Source: Adlercreutzia sp. ZJ141
Lineage (GTDB): Bacteria > Actinomycetota > Coriobacteriia > Coriobacteriales > Eggerthellaceae
Reading direction: 5' to 3'
DNA length: 50,786 bases
Assembly (NCBI RefSeq): GCF_011038965.1
Contig: NZ_JAAKEB010000015.1
Span: forward strand, 1-50,786
In this document: in pieces, positions 861-19,294 of the stretch
Numbering within the stretch: the stretch's first letter is position 1
Layout: each line of letters opens with the position of its first letter
Made by a program: the position numbers and the translations under genes
The notes under the pieces: model-generated
Seen by the model: the letters and a program-made list of their open reading frames with translations, nothing else
The model's database searches: none
What the model was told of the DNA's origin: nothing

Positions 861-3154
861 ACGGGTCTTATCTCGCCGAAAAGCTGCGGCGTGACTGCCA
901 GCTTCTTTGTTGCCTCGCGTGAGCTGGAAGATCTAAACTCCTTAACACGTATTATGCGCTCTTCTATTGGTGAGATTCCAGTGTATTCTTTGCTTGGAAC
1001 ATCTTTTAACCAAATGCACCAGCGATTCTTGTTGTTAAGGAACTCCTGAGCACCCATAAACTGCCTGATAAACTGTTGGCATCGTAAGTCTTTATGGATC
1101 AGCTCTTTTGCTTCCTCGTCTTTTAGCAGAAGGTTTCCGCCATCGTTCGGCATATTTCCAAATGATATTTCTGCAACTTTGCAAATCGGCTTTGGACGAT
1201 TCCTTATAAATACATCAGGGGCGTTTTTCAGATATGCGTTGATGTTTGACGGATATGTAACATCCGCTACGGAATCAGGTGTTTTGTAATGAAATAGCAC
1301 CTTTGCTTTTGATTGTTTCGAGAATCCTATGATGACTACATAAACATGCGCCTGATCGTTAGCTTCGCTTTTCCATCTGAAAGTATCGTAGGCGAAGTCG
1401 ATATGAAAACCCAAAGCGAAGATTTGTGACCACAGAATCTCGACTTGATCACCTTGGCTTATCGAGTTGGTTGATACGAAAGCGCACTTGATTGGATAAT
1501 CCATCATGTACTCGGCAGCTTTCATATACCAACCAGCAACATAATCGAGATTACTGCAATTCTTTGAGTTTTGGAAGACTTCTTTGATGTCTTCCTTTTG
1601 TTGTTTTGATTGCAGGCGCGCACCATAGAACGGTGGGTTACCTTCGATGTAGCTGCACTTCTCCGCCGGAAGCACATCGTTCCAGTCCATGCGCAGGGCA
1701 TTGCCCTCCACGATATGGGCGTTGGTGGTCAGGGGGAAGTAATCGATGTAGCGGCTCACAATATCCTGCGTCTCGGTGAGCATCTGGCTCTCGGCAATCC
1801 AAAGCGCAGTCTTCGCCACACTTACGGCGAAGTCGTTGATCTCGATGCCATAGAACTGCCTAATGGACACCTTCACAGGGTCGGCGTCGCCGTCGAAGCC
1901 GAGCGAGGCCTGCCCTTCGCCTTGGATGTTTTCCAGCACGCGGTTCTCAAGGCGGCGCAGCTGGATGTAGCTTTCGGTCAGGAAGTTGCCGCTTCCGCAC
2001 GCGGGGTCAACAATATTCAGGGACGCCAGCTTATTCTGGAACGCGCGCAATGCGAACATGCGCTTGCGCTCCACCTTCTCACCCTCAATTTCAGCGAGTT
2101 CCGTTTTGAGATCATCTAAGAACAGCGGGTCTATCACCTTGTGGATGTTCTCGATGCTGGTGTAGTGCATGCCGCCGGCACGACGTGTCTCAGGGTTTAA
2201 GGTGCTCTCAAACACCGCCCCGAAGATGGTGGGGCTAATATCTTTCCAGTTGAATCCACACGATGCATTCAGCAGCAATTCAACTCGCAAATCCTCGGTG
2301 AACTGCGGCACGATGATTGTCTCATCAGCAAAAAGCGAGCCGTTTACATACGGGAACTCTAGCAGCTTTTCGGACGCGTAGGGGTCACGCCTTTCTTCCG
2401 GCGTGTCAAGCACCTTGAACAGATCCAGCAAAGCAACGCGGGATTGTTCGGCGTTGAATGCCTTCATGTACTTAAAGAATGCCTGGTGCCCGTCGAACAG
2501 CCCTGCGTCTTCTGCGTACAGAAGGAATACCAGCCGCACGATGAGCACGTTCAGGCTGCGCTGCTCTTCGGCACTCTCATCCAGGTTCTTATACTGCTTC
2601 GCAAAGGCGTCGTAGAGCTTGCCTACGATCTCACCCGCCTCGACGGAGAGCTTTTTCTCCTTCACCAGGCGCGACTGCGACTTGTCGAAGAAGAAGTCGA
2701 ACAAATATGCTTGATCTGGCAGGTCTTCGAGCTTGACCGACACGTAATCGCGTTCGGGGTATTCCAGCTCAAGATCGTGAATACGGAATTCATCGAAGCT
2801 GGTGACAATAATCCAGCGCGGCGTGATGGAGTTAGGCAGCTCGTTTGCGTACCACTTCGCCTGCTGATACGGCGTCTCGAAACCGTACTTGCCGTTGTTG
2901 CGCTGCTCATCTAAGATGCCAGGTTTGCGAGACTTCGCCTCTATGAGAATTCCCATATCCTCGTAGAACGCGTCTATCTTGCGCCCCTTAACGCGACGCT
3001 CGAAGTCGATGATGCGGGTGGGGTTCTCTATTCCCAGCACATCGCTTAGAAACTCGATCAGGAAACTGCGGGCCTCGCGATCTTCGTTACACTCAGCGCT
3101 CTTCCAACGCTCAACAAATGCGCGTATTGCCTGCTTATTGGTGGTCTTTGCCAT
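848..3154 (-). CDS. MmeI-family type IIL restriction-modification enzyme, copy 1, C-terminally truncated by the IS
   Basis: This 768-residue protein has the layout of MmeI-type single-chain restriction/methyltransferase enzymes (about 920 residues). The N-terminal PD-(D/E)XK nuclease shows KIDAFYEDMGILIEAKS. A helical linker follows, then a gamma-type N6-adenine methyltransferase with SAM motif DPACGSGNFL and catalytic NPPF, then part of the target-recognition domain. After TPQLFGEIR the frame enters foreign sequence and stops (PVFRI*) within 20 bp of the presumed IS tip, so roughly the last 150-190 residues are missing compared with copy 2. The N-terminus is intact (MAKTTNKQAIR). Nuclease and methyltransferase cores are present, but recognition is probably lost. 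Nucleotide identity with copy 2 (offset 7305 bp) is very high from about 1655 to 2614 and collapses past NPPF. Confidence 0.85.
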   Translation of the reverse strand: MAKTTNKQAIRAFVERWKSAECNEDREARSFLIEFLSDVLGIENPTRIIDFERRVKGRKIDAFYEDMGILIEAKSRKPGILDEQRNNGKYGFETPYQQAKWYANELPNSITPRWIIVTSFDEFRIHDLELEYPERDYVSVKLEDLPDQAYLFDFFFDKSQSRLVKEKKLSVEAGEIVGKLYDAFAKQYKNLDESAEEQRSLNVLIVRLVFLLYAEDAGLFDGHQAFFKYMKAFNAEQSRVALLDLFKVLDTPEERRDPYASEKLLEFPYVNGSLFADETIIVPQFTEDLRVELLLNASCGFNWKDISPTIFGAVFESTLNPETRRAGGMHYTSIENIHKVIDPLFLDDLKTELAEIEGEKVERKRMFALRAFQNKLASLNIVDPACGSGNFLTESYIQLRRLENRVLENIQGEGQASLGFDGDADPVKVSIRQFYGIEINDFAVSVAKTALWIAESQMLTETQDIVSRYIDYFPLTTNAHIVEGNALRMDWNDVLPAEKCSYIEGNPPFYGARLQSKQQKEDIKEVFQNSKNCSNLDYVAGWYMKAAEYMMDYPIKCAFVSTNSISQGDQVEILWSQIFALGFHIDFAYDTFRWKSEANDQAHVYVVIIGFSKQSKAKVLFHYKTPDSVADVTYPSNINAYLKNAPDVFIRNRPKPICKVAEISFGNMPNDGGNLLLKDEEAKELIHKDLRCQQFIRQFMGAQEFLNNKNRWCIWLKDVPSKEYTGISPIEERIIRVKEFRSSSSREATKKLAVTPQLFGEIRPVFRI

Positions 3155-3198
3155 GCGGTGCTTCTATTCGTAAATTAAGGTGAATGAATCTGAAATCC

Positions 3199-3204
3199 AT
3201 TATA
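3199..3204 (-). promoter_or_regulatory. Conserved -10 box upstream of RM copy 1
   Basis: TATAAT on the minus strand lies about 45 bp before the ATG at 3154. The same box and about 50 flanking bases recur in front of copy 2 (9992-9997), so both copies were duplicated with their promoter. No -35 hexamer with normal spacing is conserved between them. Confidence 0.5.
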
Positions 3205-3290
3205 CGTGTACGCCATCGCAATAGAGCAATCATTGTCCCGCAAAGCGGTCTGCCACACCATCATCCCCGAGTTCTCGGTGGCGGTGGTCA

Positions 3291-3382
3291 GTGTGACAAA
3301 ATGCCCTGACCCTATTGTCACACATGCGACGGGGGCTATGTCACAGACAGGTGCTCTGGTAGACAGCGCCCGCCAGAGCACC
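3291..3382. repeat. Pair of palindromes downstream of the flavin reductase gene
   Basis: The 320-bp gap between RM copy 1 and the flavin reductase holds no gene. GTGTGACAA (3291-3299) pairs perfectly with TTGTCACAC (3315-3323), and GGTGCTCTGG (3350-3359) pairs perfectly with CCAGAGCACC (3373-3382). Neither is followed by a T-run, so they look more like REP-type palindromes than classical terminators, although they could protect or end the minus-strand transcript arriving from 3476. The segment 3298-3327 recurs inverted at 6399-6428. Confidence 0.55.
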
Positions 3383-11969: not shown

Positions 11970-13136
11970 TCACATGTTGGATGAGCGGGCGCATTTCCTT
12001 TTGCCGCGGCCTTGATTGCCGAATGTTTGCTTTTCGTGGCGGCGGCGACGTGCCTCTTCCTGACGTGCCGCCTGATCGGCTGTTTCTCGGCGAAGTGCCT
12101 GATACGATGCAAACCTGTTTTCGGACAACGTGCCCGCCTCAACCGCTGCGCGCACAGCACACCCCGGCTCGTTTTCGTGTTTGCAATCGCGAAAGCGGCA
12201 CTGTTCGGCCAGCCGCTCAATGTCGGAGAACGCCGCGCCAATGCCTTCGTCGGCATTCCACAGCCCCAAGCCGCGCACGCCCGGCATATCCACAACGAAC
12301 CCGCCGCCGGGAAGTGTCACCATGTCGCGGCTCACCGTGGTGTGCCGACCCTTACCGTCGCCTTCGCGCACGGTGGCAGTTGCTTGGACATCGCTTCCCA
12401 CTAGCATGTTCACCAAGCTCGACTTACCCACGCCGCTTTTTCCTAACAGCACCGCAGTTACATTTTCGGGAATCATTTCACGCACAGCACAAACGCTAGC
12501 TGCATCGTCAGACGACACCACCGCAACGGTCACGTCGGGGCCCACGAGATCGGCAACTTCACGCCGTACGCGCTCTACCTGCCCTTCACTCTCGGCAAGA
12601 TCGGCCTTGGTTAGAACCACCGCTACACGCGCGCCGGTTTCGTGCGCCAGCACCAGTTCGCGCTCCATGCGCCGCACGTTCACATTGGCAAGCGGCTGCG
12701 CCACAATAACCACGTCGAAATTCGCCGCTAACACCTGGGGAAGCGAACGCTCGGTAGGGTCTTTCCGCACGAAGGCGCGAGTACGTGGCAAAATGCGCGT
12801 AATGATGCCCTTATCGTGTCCGGCGGGTACGTCAACCTCAACAAAATCCCCAATAGTCGCGCGCTCACGGGTGCCTTTCACCAGCGCCGTCGCGTGTTCA
12901 CACCGAACAAGTTGCGCTGGCGAAGCTGGTGCTGTTGGCGCGGTTGATGCAGTTGGTGAAGCTGACACACAAGGCGCACCTGATGCACCTGGCTCATCTA
13001 ATGCAGCCGCATTCTCTTCCAGCACCCTCACCAGCGGATACCCGCGATCGAGCTTGATCACCTGCCCGCGCACGAGCGAAGCCGCCAAAGCCGCCGATGC
13101 TTTTGTGCGCTCGTTGTCAAACAGTTCTGCGCCCAT
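11970..13136 (-). CDS. rsgA: Ribosome small subunit-dependent GTPase A
   Basis: 388 residues with an N-terminal OB fold (GDFVEVDVP...GIITRILPR) and a circularly permuted GTPase: the NKxD-like TKADL comes before the P-loop GKSGVGKSSLVNML, followed by DMPGVRG. A C-terminal zinc-binding segment C-x4-C-x-H-x5-C (CRFRDCKHENEPGC) completes it. RsgA helps mature and check the 30S subunit using GTP. An Ala/Pro/Thr-rich stretch of about 40 residues interrupts the N-terminal OB region and makes the protein longer than usual. Its ATG directly follows the TAG of the upstream gene, so the two are coupled. Confidence 0.93.
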   Translation of the reverse strand: MGAELFDNERTKASAALAASLVRGQVIKLDRGYPLVRVLEENAAALDEPGASGAPCVSASPTASTAPTAPASPAQLVRCEHATALVKGTRERATIGDFVEVDVPAGHDKGIITRILPRTRAFVRKDPTERSLPQVLAANFDVVIVAQPLANVNVRRMERELVLAHETGARVAVVLTKADLAESEGQVERVRREVADLVGPDVTVAVVSSDDAASVCAVREMIPENVTAVLLGKSGVGKSSLVNMLVGSDVQATATVREGDGKGRHTTVSRDMVTLPGGGFVVDMPGVRGLGLWNADEGIGAAFSDIERLAEQCRFRDCKHENEPGCAVRAAVEAGTLSENRFASYQALRRETADQAARQEEARRRRHEKQTFGNQGRGKRKCARSSNM

Positions 13137-16942: not shown

Positions 16943-17335
16943 CTAATGAAGGCGACGGATGGCAAGTGCTGTTGATCCGGGATTCACCAAGGCGTTTACC
17001 GATTCACGCGTTTCGAGCTCGTGCACACGGTCGGCAAGACGTCGCACGCGCTTATGCAGGTCGTCAAGCTCTTGATCGCGCTCATCGAGCCTGCCCTGCA
17101 AGTCGAGAATACGCGTCACACCTGCCAAGTTAATTCCCTCGCTGGTAAGCTCATTGATTAACGTGAGCCTATCGATATCAGCCTGCGAGTAGCGCCGCGT
17201 GTTGCCACTCGTACGCTGTGGTGTGACCAGGCCTTTCTGCTCGTACGCGCGCAGCGTCTGCGGATGCACACCCGCCAGCTCGGCAGCGACGCTGATCATA
17301 TATACCGGGCGATCCCTATCGGTGCGCTCAGTCAT
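16943..17335 (-). CDS. hspR: Heat-shock repressor HspR (MerR family)
   Basis: 130 residues. The MerR winged helix is at the N-terminus ([33 protein letters not shown]...NTRRYS), followed by a coiled-coil dimer helix ([26 protein letters not shown]). The motif [16 protein letters not shown] is characteristic of HspR, which represses the dnaK and clpB operons through HAIR sites and uses DnaK as co-repressor. It overlaps the end of dnaJ by 8 bp, giving the actinobacterial order dnaK-grpE-dnaJ-hspR. Confidence 0.92.
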
Positions 17336-18275
17336 TCCAATCCCTCATCTCGTCATCCGATGCATCAAGGTAGGCTTGTAGCGCCGCAGCTTGCCGGTCG
17401 TTGAGTGTCTGGGGGACACGAACCTTCACCGTTAGCTTCAAGTCACCCGAACCCGAGCCTTTCACCTTCGGAGCACCCTTGCCGCGAAGCGTCAGCTTTG
17501 TGTCGTGCTGGGTGCCGGCGGGAACCTTCACGCGAACCTTGGGTCCACCAGGCGTAGGAACAATCACGCTCGCGCCCAACGCCGCCTCGGCAACGCTCAC
17601 CGGAACATCGAGCAGCACGTCGGCCCCATCGCGTGTGAAGAACGGATGCGGAGCGATCTTCGTGGTTATGAGCAAGTCGCCTGCAGCTCCGCCGTTTTCT
17701 CCTGGAGCACCCTTTCCCTTGAAACGCAAACGACCCCCATCAACAGCACCCGCAGGAACTTTCACCAACAGCGTTTCCGTTTCGGTCTTGCCGGGAATGC
17801 GCACCGATACGCTCTTCTGCGTACCAGAAAACGCTTCATCGAACGTCACGTTGAGCGTCACGTTCATGTCCTGTCCCTTCCGTGGACGTGGACCGCGCGG
17901 AGCACCACCAAAGCCACCAAATCCGCCGAAACCGCCTGCGCCCCAATCGGACCCGAACGCACCTTCACCCCGGCGAATACTCTCGAGAATTTCTGCCCAA
18001 CTACCGAAGCCTCCGAACATATCGTCAGCTGATGCAGCTCCCCAGCCGTGGGGAATGCGATTTGCATCGGCAGTACCGTACTGGTCGTAAATCTTGCGCT
18101 TCTTCTCGTCGGAGAGCACCTCGTAGGCTTCGTTGATCTCCTTAAATTTCGCCTCATCACCACCCGCATCAGGATGATGCGTGCGAGCGAGCTTGCGAAA
18201 AGCTTTCTTTATCTCATCGCTTGAGGCGGTGCGAGGCACGCCAAGCGTCTTGTAATAGTCAGGGGTAGCCGACAT
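17328..18275 (-). CDS. dnaJ: DnaJ/CbpA-type co-chaperone lacking the zinc-finger domain
   Basis: 315 residues from ATG 18275 (AGAGGTGG upstream; an earlier in-frame TTG is unlikely). J domain at residues 5-70 with the HPD tripeptide ([11 protein letters not shown]). A Gly/Phe-rich linker follows ([11 protein letters not shown]), then two C-terminal substrate-binding beta domains. The CXXCXGXG zinc-finger repeats are absent, so this is a CbpA-like type B J-protein. It stimulates DnaK ATPase. It sits between grpE and hspR, preceded by a structured intergenic region. Confidence 0.92.
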
Positions 18276-18302
18276 ACGCCCACCTCTCTTTCTTTTTTTA
18301 AG

Positions 18303-18333
18303 CAAGGGCGGGCCAAAGAAAAGCCCGCCCTTG
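18303..18333. terminator. 11-bp perfect hairpin just upstream of dnaJ
   Basis: CAAGGGCGGGC (18303-18313) and GCCCGCCCTTG (18323-18333) are perfect complements around a 9-base loop. It lies 28 bp before the dnaJ start inside the operon. On the minus strand it is followed by A-rich, not T-rich sequence, so it is probably an attenuation, processing or stability structure and not a full terminator. Confidence 0.5.
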
Positions 18334-18367
18334 AATCAATCGTTATTGGCAATGTCTCAGCTTTGAA

Positions 18368-18476
18368 GGAGTGCGGAACAATGCTCACTAAGCGAGTTCC
18401 GCAGCGACTGGAACAGTCCAGCGGACTGTTCCACAAAGCGAGGACTGCCGAGCGACTGAGCGTTGCTCCGCACTCC
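18368..18476. repeat. 109-bp composite palindromic element between grpE and dnaJ
   Basis: Outer arms 18368-18387 and 18457-18476 are inverted repeats matching at 18 of 20 positions. Inside lies a perfect 10-bp palindrome GGAACAGTCC/GGACTGTTCC (18410-18419 and 18423-18432). Between them AAGCGAG and GCGACT words are directly repeated on each side. The transcript would fold into a long branched hairpin immediately after grpE. It has the look of a small mobile palindrome or a processing element. Confidence 0.7.
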
Positions 18477-18493
18477 ACAGCCTCGCATTGCTG

Positions 18494-19294
18494 TTACTCT
18501 TCCGCAGCGGGCTTTTCTCGTTTTGGCCCGCCCGTTGTGACCGTCACCATGGCCGGCCGCAGCACCTTCGCGCCCATCTTGTAGCCCTTTTGGTACACAT
18601 CGGCCACCGTTTCGTCGGGTACATCGGTGTTGGGAACCGTGGCAACCGCCTGAGCCTCCAACGCATCGTATGGCTCGCCGGCCGGGTCGATCACCTGCAC
18701 GCCATCTTTCACCAGCACGTCAACGAACTTGGCATGCACGGCTTTCACACCATCGAGTAAATCGGCCTCGCCGTTGTTGGCAGCGAAATCGATGGTACGC
18801 TCGAAGTCATCAATGACAGGAATCAGCCCCATAACCAACTTCTCGGCAGCACGGGCCTTCTCAACCTCACGCTGCTCGTTCATACGACGACGGTACGTGT
18901 CCCATTCGGCGTGGAGCCGCATGAACTTGTCCTGCCACTCCTTCGCTTCAGCCTGTGCGGCTGCGATCAGTTCGTCGGAGCTTTGCTGGGCATCGGCCTG
19001 CTCGAGCACCTCTTCAGCCTCTCGAACCACGTCCGATTCGCCCTGTTCCTCGTCGTGCACCTCATCGTGCTCGTTATCACAATCGGCTGCGGCCTCGGCC
19101 GACCCCGAAGGGTCGGCCGGCTCGACAGATGCGGCGTCCTCGGAGGAGGAGGTCGAGTCGCCGCCGTGGTCGACGTTTTCTGTGGCAGGCAACACTGCGT
19201 CCGCCATTGGCTCTTCTACGTCATCAATGGGAATCTGCCGCGCTGTAGCCCTTGCCTCACTGTCTCGCGTGGAGTTGTTCGGCTGCTGGGTCAT
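18494..19294 (-). CDS. grpE: Nucleotide exchange factor GrpE
   Basis: 266 residues. An acidic, low-complexity N-terminal extension of about 110 residues precedes the GrpE core: a long coiled-coil helix (EAKEWQDKFMRLHAEWDTYRRRM) and the C-terminal beta domain with GVQVIDPAGEPYDALEAQAV and VADVYQKGYKMGAKVLRPAMVTV, the family signature. It releases ADP from DnaK. The start is 5 bp after the dnaK stop and its ribosome site lies within the dnaK end. Confidence 0.93.
   Translation of the reverse strand: MTQQPNNSTRDSEARATARQIPIDDVEEPMADAVLPATENVDHGGDSTSSSEDAASVEPADPSGSAEAAADCDNEHDEVHDEEQGESDVVREAEEVLEQADAQQSSDELIAAAQAEAKEWQDKFMRLHAEWDTYRRRMNEQREVEKARAAEKLVMGLIPVIDDFERTIDFAANNGEADLLDGVKAVHAKFVDVLVKDGVQVIDPAGEPYDALEAQAVATVPNTDVPDETVADVYQKGYKMGAKVLRPAMVTVTTGGPKREKPAAEE

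Follow-up and report, generated by a model that had tools for sequence, protein, structure and literature searches.

The composite palindrome between grpE and dnaJ of Adlercreutzia sp. ZJ141 probably belongs to a dispersed family of non-autonomous mobile repeats in the Coriobacteriia, with a mover acting in trans. It lies in the window, which here denotes the whole analysed stretch of 50,786 nucleotides (contig NZ_JAAKEB010000015.1) and which stems from a draft genome of 2.29 Mb. According to the list of open reading frames (ORFs), a dnaK-grpE-dnaJ-hspR-clpB operon is encoded on the minus strand; we assume the names of its genes from a preliminary description of this DNA and from recognition of the sequence. 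The grpE ORF (18494..19294, minus strand) has its stop at 18494 and served as the query for the corresponding gaps of relatives. The dnaJ ORF (17328..18275, minus strand) starts with an ATG at 18275 and contains the J-domain motif. Downstream of dnaJ follows the ORF of a MerR-type regulator (16943..17335, minus strand), which we take to be hspR-like on the same two grounds. Two separate hairpins occupy the grpE-dnaJ gap, the palindrome at 18368-18476 and a GC hairpin at 18303-18333. The palindrome ends 17 nt from the grpE stop and its core strand runs antisense to the operon.

The palindrome is 109 bp long. Read along the plus strand, it consists of a left outer arm (GGAGTGCGGAACAATGCTCA, 18368..18387), a conserved left core half (CTAAGCGAGTTCCGCAGCGAC, 18388..18408), an inner stem-loop of 11 bp with a 3-nt loop (18409..18433), a conserved right core half (CAAAGCGAGGACTGCCGAGCGAC, 18434..18456) and a right outer arm (TGAGCGTTGCTCCGCACTCC, 18457..18476). 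The outer arms were delimited by eye and are complementary at 18 of 20 positions. Both core halves emerged from alignment with seven other copies of the same genome and from the covariation of 30 Adlercreutzia-type copies. The inner stem-loop varies among copies by paired changes. Two direct words each occur twice, AAGCGAG at 18390-18396 and 18436-18442 and GCGACTG at 18404-18410 and 18452-18458. In the minimum-free-energy fold the hairpin is somewhat longer than 109 bp and covers 18350..18490, with weaker outermost pairs between CAATG (18350) and CATTG (18490). The gap from 18277 to 18493 folds with -102.8 kcal/mol in comparison to -73.3 ± 4.2 kcal/mol for 200 shuffles (z = -6.97), none of which equalled it. 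Inverted repeats pairing at 18 or more of 20 positions over a span of 60-160 nt were found once in the window and not at all in five mononucleotide shuffles of it. As RNA, the palindrome is very stable on both strands, with about -62 kcal/mol for 110 nt on the transcribed strand. The preliminary description had seen a 109-bp element with 20-bp outer arms and mirrored direct words, which agrees with our reading of the sequence and with its fold; the inner palindrome that it gave as 10 bp is present, too, with a stem that measures 11 bp around the 3-nt loop.

With the element alone as the query, BLAST found partial matches (E < 0.1) on five further contigs of its genome; at E < 1e-5 there were six matches, the element itself included. 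When these copies were aligned in one orientation, a common core of ~50 nt around the variable inner stem-loop became apparent. A covariance model was built from eight full copies of this genome, which it recovers by construction (E <= 1.7e-12); of its weaker matches in the same genome, only three (E about 1e-7) are counted as copies, with long arms and no inner stem. At E <= 0.01, the model finds the family in 29 of 60 genomes, the own genome among them, at up to 60 places each (60 in G005, 29 in G021, 22 each in G017 and G022), these counts being lower bounds owing to stricter filters. A pattern scan with one genome per species (genome_contigs) yielded at least 119 stretches, and all but two of their titles belong to Coriobacteriia, some of the genera being presumed members of this class; the two are a 'Corynebacterium sp.' MAG (L164) and an 'actinobacterium' (L205). 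The same scan gave no matches in viral_contigs. In Parvibacter caecicola, near-identical copies are seen by eye between different flanks. The remark in the preliminary description that the palindrome has the form of a miniature mobile element is thus supported by dispersed copies in the own genome and in 28 others among the 60. In a Parvibacter stretch (L388, ~1230-1560 and ~12800-13060), other high-copy repeats stand beside the element, including a hairpin with GGCAGAGATAGAATCTCTGCC.

No Rfam 15 family reached its gathering score on the elements in the window and in 20 further loci. Sub-threshold Rfam matches between 18200 and 18560 fall at 18284-18386, mostly on the GC hairpin. We found no published description of the family in the literature covered, the supplementary candidate lists of PMC8040213 lying outside that scope. 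This study presents thousands of candidate RNAs and mentions one Collinsella example by name.

The two outer arms of a copy pair with each other, and arms from different copies are unrelated. In a set of 189 elements, which includes orthologous and overlapping ones, arms paired with their own partner at a median score of 34, while the arm of a random other copy reached a maximum of 22. The outer end of most arms lies 28-33 nt away from the core. Covariation was assessed in 30 gap-free Adlercreutzia-type copies using a 44-pair structure. In this structure 90.8% of the cells are paired and 28 of the 44 pairs have changed on both sides, which none of 500 shuffles reached. Sliding the structure by 1-3 columns left 37-46% of the cells paired, a comparison that favours the unslid version in so far as the structure was written by hand from the same sequences. 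In the inner stem, 7 of the 11 pairs have changed on both sides. Helix 2, by which the left core half is also recognised, is nearly invariant in these 30 copies, and 29 of them retain a particular G.T pair. One further position is unpaired in 22 of the 30 and, where read by eye, holds an A.G mismatch.

The pairs also distinguish the two strands. In the inner arm, the core strand carries G.T 165 times versus A.C 56 times among 157 non-redundant copies, and 36 of the 56 A.C cases sit at one fixed position; the outer arm, at distances above 20 nt from the core, shows no preference for G.T (57 to 72). Since the excess of G.T over A.C persists where the host genes run in the opposite direction (50 to 22), the preference seems to be a property of the element and not of the host message, with the reservation that the counts are not independent, copies from one ancestor sharing pairs, and that the gene calls are crude.

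The two hairpins of the grpE-dnaJ gap have different histories. The GC hairpin, 11 bp with all 11 positions paired (18303-18313 with 18323-18333), adjoins dnaJ at a distance of 27 nt from its ATG; the preliminary description had correctly noted a perfect 11-bp stem and had placed it 28 nt from the start. GrpE was matched in 95 of 99 family genomes, and the best 30 of these 95 loci yielded 29 parsed gaps, that of the window among them. The element core is present in 3 of the 29, namely in the window (antisense), in L261 (sense) and in L274 (antisense), and is missing from 26 of the 28 relatives' parsed gaps. A GC-rich hairpin with an exact stem of at least 6 bp, however, occurs in 28 of the 29 gaps, in comparison to a mean of 4.8 and a maximum of 9 in 50 shuffles, and a stem of at least 8 bp occurs in 23 gaps, in comparison to 0.4 in shuffles. 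The sequences of these stems near dnaJ differ among relatives. Because a GC-rich hairpin is found in 28 of the 29 parsed gaps, the GC hairpin is a separate feature that lies outside the mobile element; of the two hairpins, this one and not the palindrome qualifies as a candidate conserved intercistronic element. The preliminary description had merged the two into one structure, which this distribution does not bear out. By eye, the gaps of L259, L265, L272 and L282 contain long palindromic inserts without the element core.

To describe where copies reside, the genes around 101 of them were called by a crude method based on codons. By this measure 81 copies are intergenic, 19 are located within ORFs and 1 is at an edge. 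Among the intergenic copies, 42 are antisense to tandem genes, 20 are sense, 15 lie between convergent and 4 between divergent genes; the same loci have 350 tandem gaps of at least 20 nt and 76 each of the convergent and the divergent type. For antisense copies, the median distance from the right end of the core to the stop codon of the gene on that side is 50 nt.

Copies also reside in frame inside protein genes. The own genome has a copy inside an open trmD of 299 codons (L004, 1240-2139), and trmD of A. hattorii contains one full copy and one half. Within the Adlercreutzia group (L355-L363), trmD bears copies or halves in eight of nine genomes and the frame is open. They are flanked throughout by one pair of protein motifs, which span 76 to 107 residues in the eight carriers and 28 residues in G168, which is without a copy. 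Ten element-bearing ORFs, the own-genome trmD and 9 of the 19 intragenic cases, were scanned with Pfam, and TrmD was recognised in both trmD products scanned. Matches on both sides of the element or across it were obtained for seven of the ten, where both TrmD products are counted with two match stretches each, of which only the second is listed; L116, L132 and L195 were unclear. The seven comprise TrmD twice, an OPT transporter, RecQ, a DEAD helicase and two products whose names are our own assignment, a putative TsaB-RimI-TsaD-like fusion (L133) and a putative ABC-F-like ATPase.

Comparison of orthologous places reveals presence, absence and replacement. In the gap between plsY and gpsA, as we take these genes to be by recognition, a copy is present in five of eight Adlercreutzia-group genomes (G005, G146, G164, G166, G167) and absent from three (G115, G165, G169). 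By eye, the absence in G115 and G165 looks like loss by deletion between short repeats. Same-place copies persist in species whose surrounding DNA is 79-91% identical; such persistence, seen upstream of thrB as well, would also be expected of a functional RNA. At the gpsA site of G166, the inner stem-loop is replaced by an unrelated, longer hairpin. A different palindromic repeat stands at a gene end in G146 and G165 (L306 ~3130-3347, L291), and the same gene in G005 is without this repeat.

Of 30 Collinsella loci around thrB, at least 14 have the element upstream of this gene, in the same position and orientation and with paired arm changes. L229 and L232 carry a long hairpin without the core at this site; the other 14 loci comprise 11 that are unreadable there, two that the anchor misplaced (L225 and L228) and one without a gap (L248). 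Just upstream of cysS (L150, L187) and of thrB (L057, L193), copies of different Collinsella species share the orientation and have wholly different arms. At the site of L106, at least four arm types of ~37-41 bp are distinguished by eye in related genomes, copies of one arm type differ by one-sided changes, and L347 has a simple hairpin without the core. Given these four or more arm types and one-sided changes, we rejected the view that arms diversify by slow compensatory drift alone.

Copies are furthermore nested: in L197 one copy sits in the apical loop of another, and L140 provides a second case, both read by eye. A motif search of the loci returned half copies and nested copies, and no autonomous, gene-bearing copy was recognised by eye in an inner loop in this search. 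Three half elements (L285, L184/L355 of G166 and L358 of G169) stop at about the same place, right after GAGTTCCGCA, as judged by eye. None of the sites compared proved to be a clean ancestral empty site that would give exact boundaries or reveal a target duplication; one Parvibacter site is without a copy in G123, where the gap differs by several repeats and the boundaries are ambiguous. An inverted duplication of target DNA upon insertion is conceivable.

As a candidate mover, we examined Y1 transposases, and no transposase or other moving enzyme was identified. Y1_Tnp matches occur in 27 of the 60 genomes. Both Y1_Tnp and the element are present in 16 genomes, the element only in 13, Y1_Tnp only in 11 and neither in 20 (Fisher p = 0.19; Spearman rho = 0.10). 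Y1_Tnp is missing from five of the nine genomes with at least ten element matches, some of these five being drafts, and eight Y1 loci among the matches listed hold no copy of the element. On the A. hattorii chromosome, the 46 matches of this one genome split by halves of the record into 8 plus and 10 minus and into 13 plus and 15 minus, so that no strand bias is seen. A RAYT or IS200 mover is therefore not supported, given that Y1 does not track the element, that these Y1 loci are without copies and that no strand bias is seen. On the same record (G166:C1), 30 of the 46 copies lie in the central third, near the switch of GC skew, and 13 of the 46 matches are 89-90 nt long, representing a core variant ~20 nt longer.

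The preliminary description had proposed a cis-regulatory RNA that sets the level of dnaJ/hspR/clpB relative to dnaK, or a thermosensor. The position inside the operon and the very stable RNA on either strand would suit this. We regard it as very unlikely, and the thermosensor or regulator was rejected on its absence at the orthologous position: the core is found in only three of the 29 parsed gaps and in two orientations, one of the two relatives that carry it having it the other way round. Moreover, other copies adjoin unrelated genes, and a hairpin of such stability would probably not melt in the physiological range. The preliminary description had itself stated that absence from orthologous operons together with many dispersed copies elsewhere would favour a neutral insertion, and both were observed. 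It is exceedingly improbable that grpE once had an intrinsic terminator or a processing hairpin here, which quasipalindrome mutation then enlarged. Palindromes are prone to template-switch mutation, and in Collinsella L347 a core-less hairpin occupies the orthologous site of another copy; a conserved core of ~50 nt that is common to unrelated loci speaks against such an origin, as does the lack of any A- or T-run at the arm ends of 149 copies.

Two further readings concern the family as a whole. It could be a class of functional structured RNA, protein-binding or involved in mRNA processing, that spread by copying and has since been maintained by selection on the RNA. Strong covariation, conserved internal loops and the G.T pair kept in nearly all copies would suit such a class, as would the constant position and orientation upstream of thrB and at the two cysS loci and the persistence of the plsY-gpsA copy. 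On the other hand, the strand preference of G.T does not flip with host transcription, as far as the crude gene calls tell, antisense placement of the core strand relative to tandem genes outnumbers sense placement, close relatives have lost copies, some copies reside inside coding genes, and no Rfam family scored at threshold on the elements searched. On balance, we think this reading rather unlikely. Alternatively, the copies could be REPINs that depend on a RAYT (Y1) transposase for their movement, or could derive from IS200/IS605. This draws on the hairpin form, the short size, the extragenic bias and the compensatory changes, traits of REPINs according to PMC3116915, and on the Y1_Tnp matches in almost half of the genomes. 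In the present family, however, conservation is confined to the centre and variation lies outside it, the presence of Y1 does not track the family, and its eight loci are without the element. Single-strand transposition of the IS200/IS605 kind might show a strand bias, which A. hattorii lacks, and we give this alternative little chance.

Under the reading as a mobile repeat moved in trans, the unit is a nested hairpin, in which a core of ~50 nt with two direct words around a variable inner stem-loop is enclosed by variable arms of ~20-25 bp. The folding strand is the plus strand of the window, and it would fold either as single-stranded DNA or in the form of a transcript of the element itself. 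A trans-acting protein may recognise the conserved internal loops, whereupon the folded strand would be copied or moved. The data show the family with its structure and covariation, its dispersal, its presence or absence among related species, its nesting and its in-frame position in trmD. They support a mobile palindrome as a kind of element, and we infer both that an enzyme mobilises the element in trans and what kind of enzyme this might be. Copies lie mostly in gaps, frequently a short way past a stop codon; few stand between divergent genes, and a number are in frame inside protein genes. After insertion they persist while their stems co-vary, and deletion can remove them. Several results count against this reading: no moving enzyme was identified, Y1_Tnp does not track the family, none of the sites compared was a clean empty site, the absences in G115 and G165 resemble losses, copies persist at fixed places, A. 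hattorii shows no strand bias, and G.T is not preferred in the outer arm. The element most likely arrived in the lineage of the window, and any effect on the operon would be incidental. An effect of this one copy on the expression of dnaJ/hspR/clpB is possible, as a candidate only. More tentatively, the mobile form may be a folded single strand that is read by its structure, with the trans-acting protein recognising the internal loops, with helices of constant length and free sequence, much as integron attC sites are read, and with a preference of the element for the apical loops of hairpins, including those of its own kind. This idea is suggested by the covarying, strand-specific fold, by the nested copy in L197 and by the core-less hairpin of L347 exactly at an element site.

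In palindromic MITEs of the ERIC, BOX and RUP type, the terminal repeats are largely fixed, whereas the terminal arms of the present element are site-specific; the distinction is drawn from descriptions. PMC10969869 names ERIC, BOX and RUP as structured, dispersed repeats and describes Rickettsia palindromic elements (RPEs) as short palindromic mobile repeats of ~150 bp that lie in frame inside conserved protein genes. As a kind of repeat, our element is best classed with RPEs and REPINs. Like RPEs, it is palindromic, ~100-150 bp long and dispersed in the genome, and it resides in frame in trmD, although only a minority of copies (19 of 101) is intragenic. It differs from RPEs in the host phylum, in being mostly intergenic and in the variable arms that surround its conserved core; the likeness rests on form and description, and among the at least 119 titles listed none names Rickettsia. 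REPINs are described in PMC3116915 as non-autonomous hairpin repeats with compensatory stem changes, in which two conserved regions flank a variable spacer. The element shares with them the non-autonomous hairpin, the short size, the extragenic bias and the compensatory stem changes; in contrast to them, its outer arms vary too. In place of inverted conserved REPs, its core halves share direct words and the variable arms lie outside, and a cognate RAYT (Y1) gene flanked by the repeats was not found, five of the nine high-copy genomes being without Y1_Tnp and the eight Y1 loci among the matches listed being without copies. An orientation tied to the replication strand, as for IS200/IS605-derived (PATE-like) elements, was not found in A. 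hattorii. From Collinsella-1 RNA (RF01700), a structured motif of related bacteria given in PMC2864571, it is set apart by the lack of a gathering-score match in Rfam 15 over the 20 loci and the window, RF01700 presumably still being part of that library.

If the reading as a trans-moved repeat is right, the Coriobacteriia (Collinsella, Adlercreutzia, Gordonibacter, Slackia and relatives), which live mostly in the gut, hold a large family of structured mobile repeats that has no Rfam 15 match in the loci searched. The family adds an apparently independent case of in-frame palindromic DNA inside protein genes such as trmD. How its elements move and why their stems stay paired would then be testable in cultivable species. 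For the window itself, the reading of a heat-shock switch gives way to that of an insertion beside a hairpin common to most relatives.
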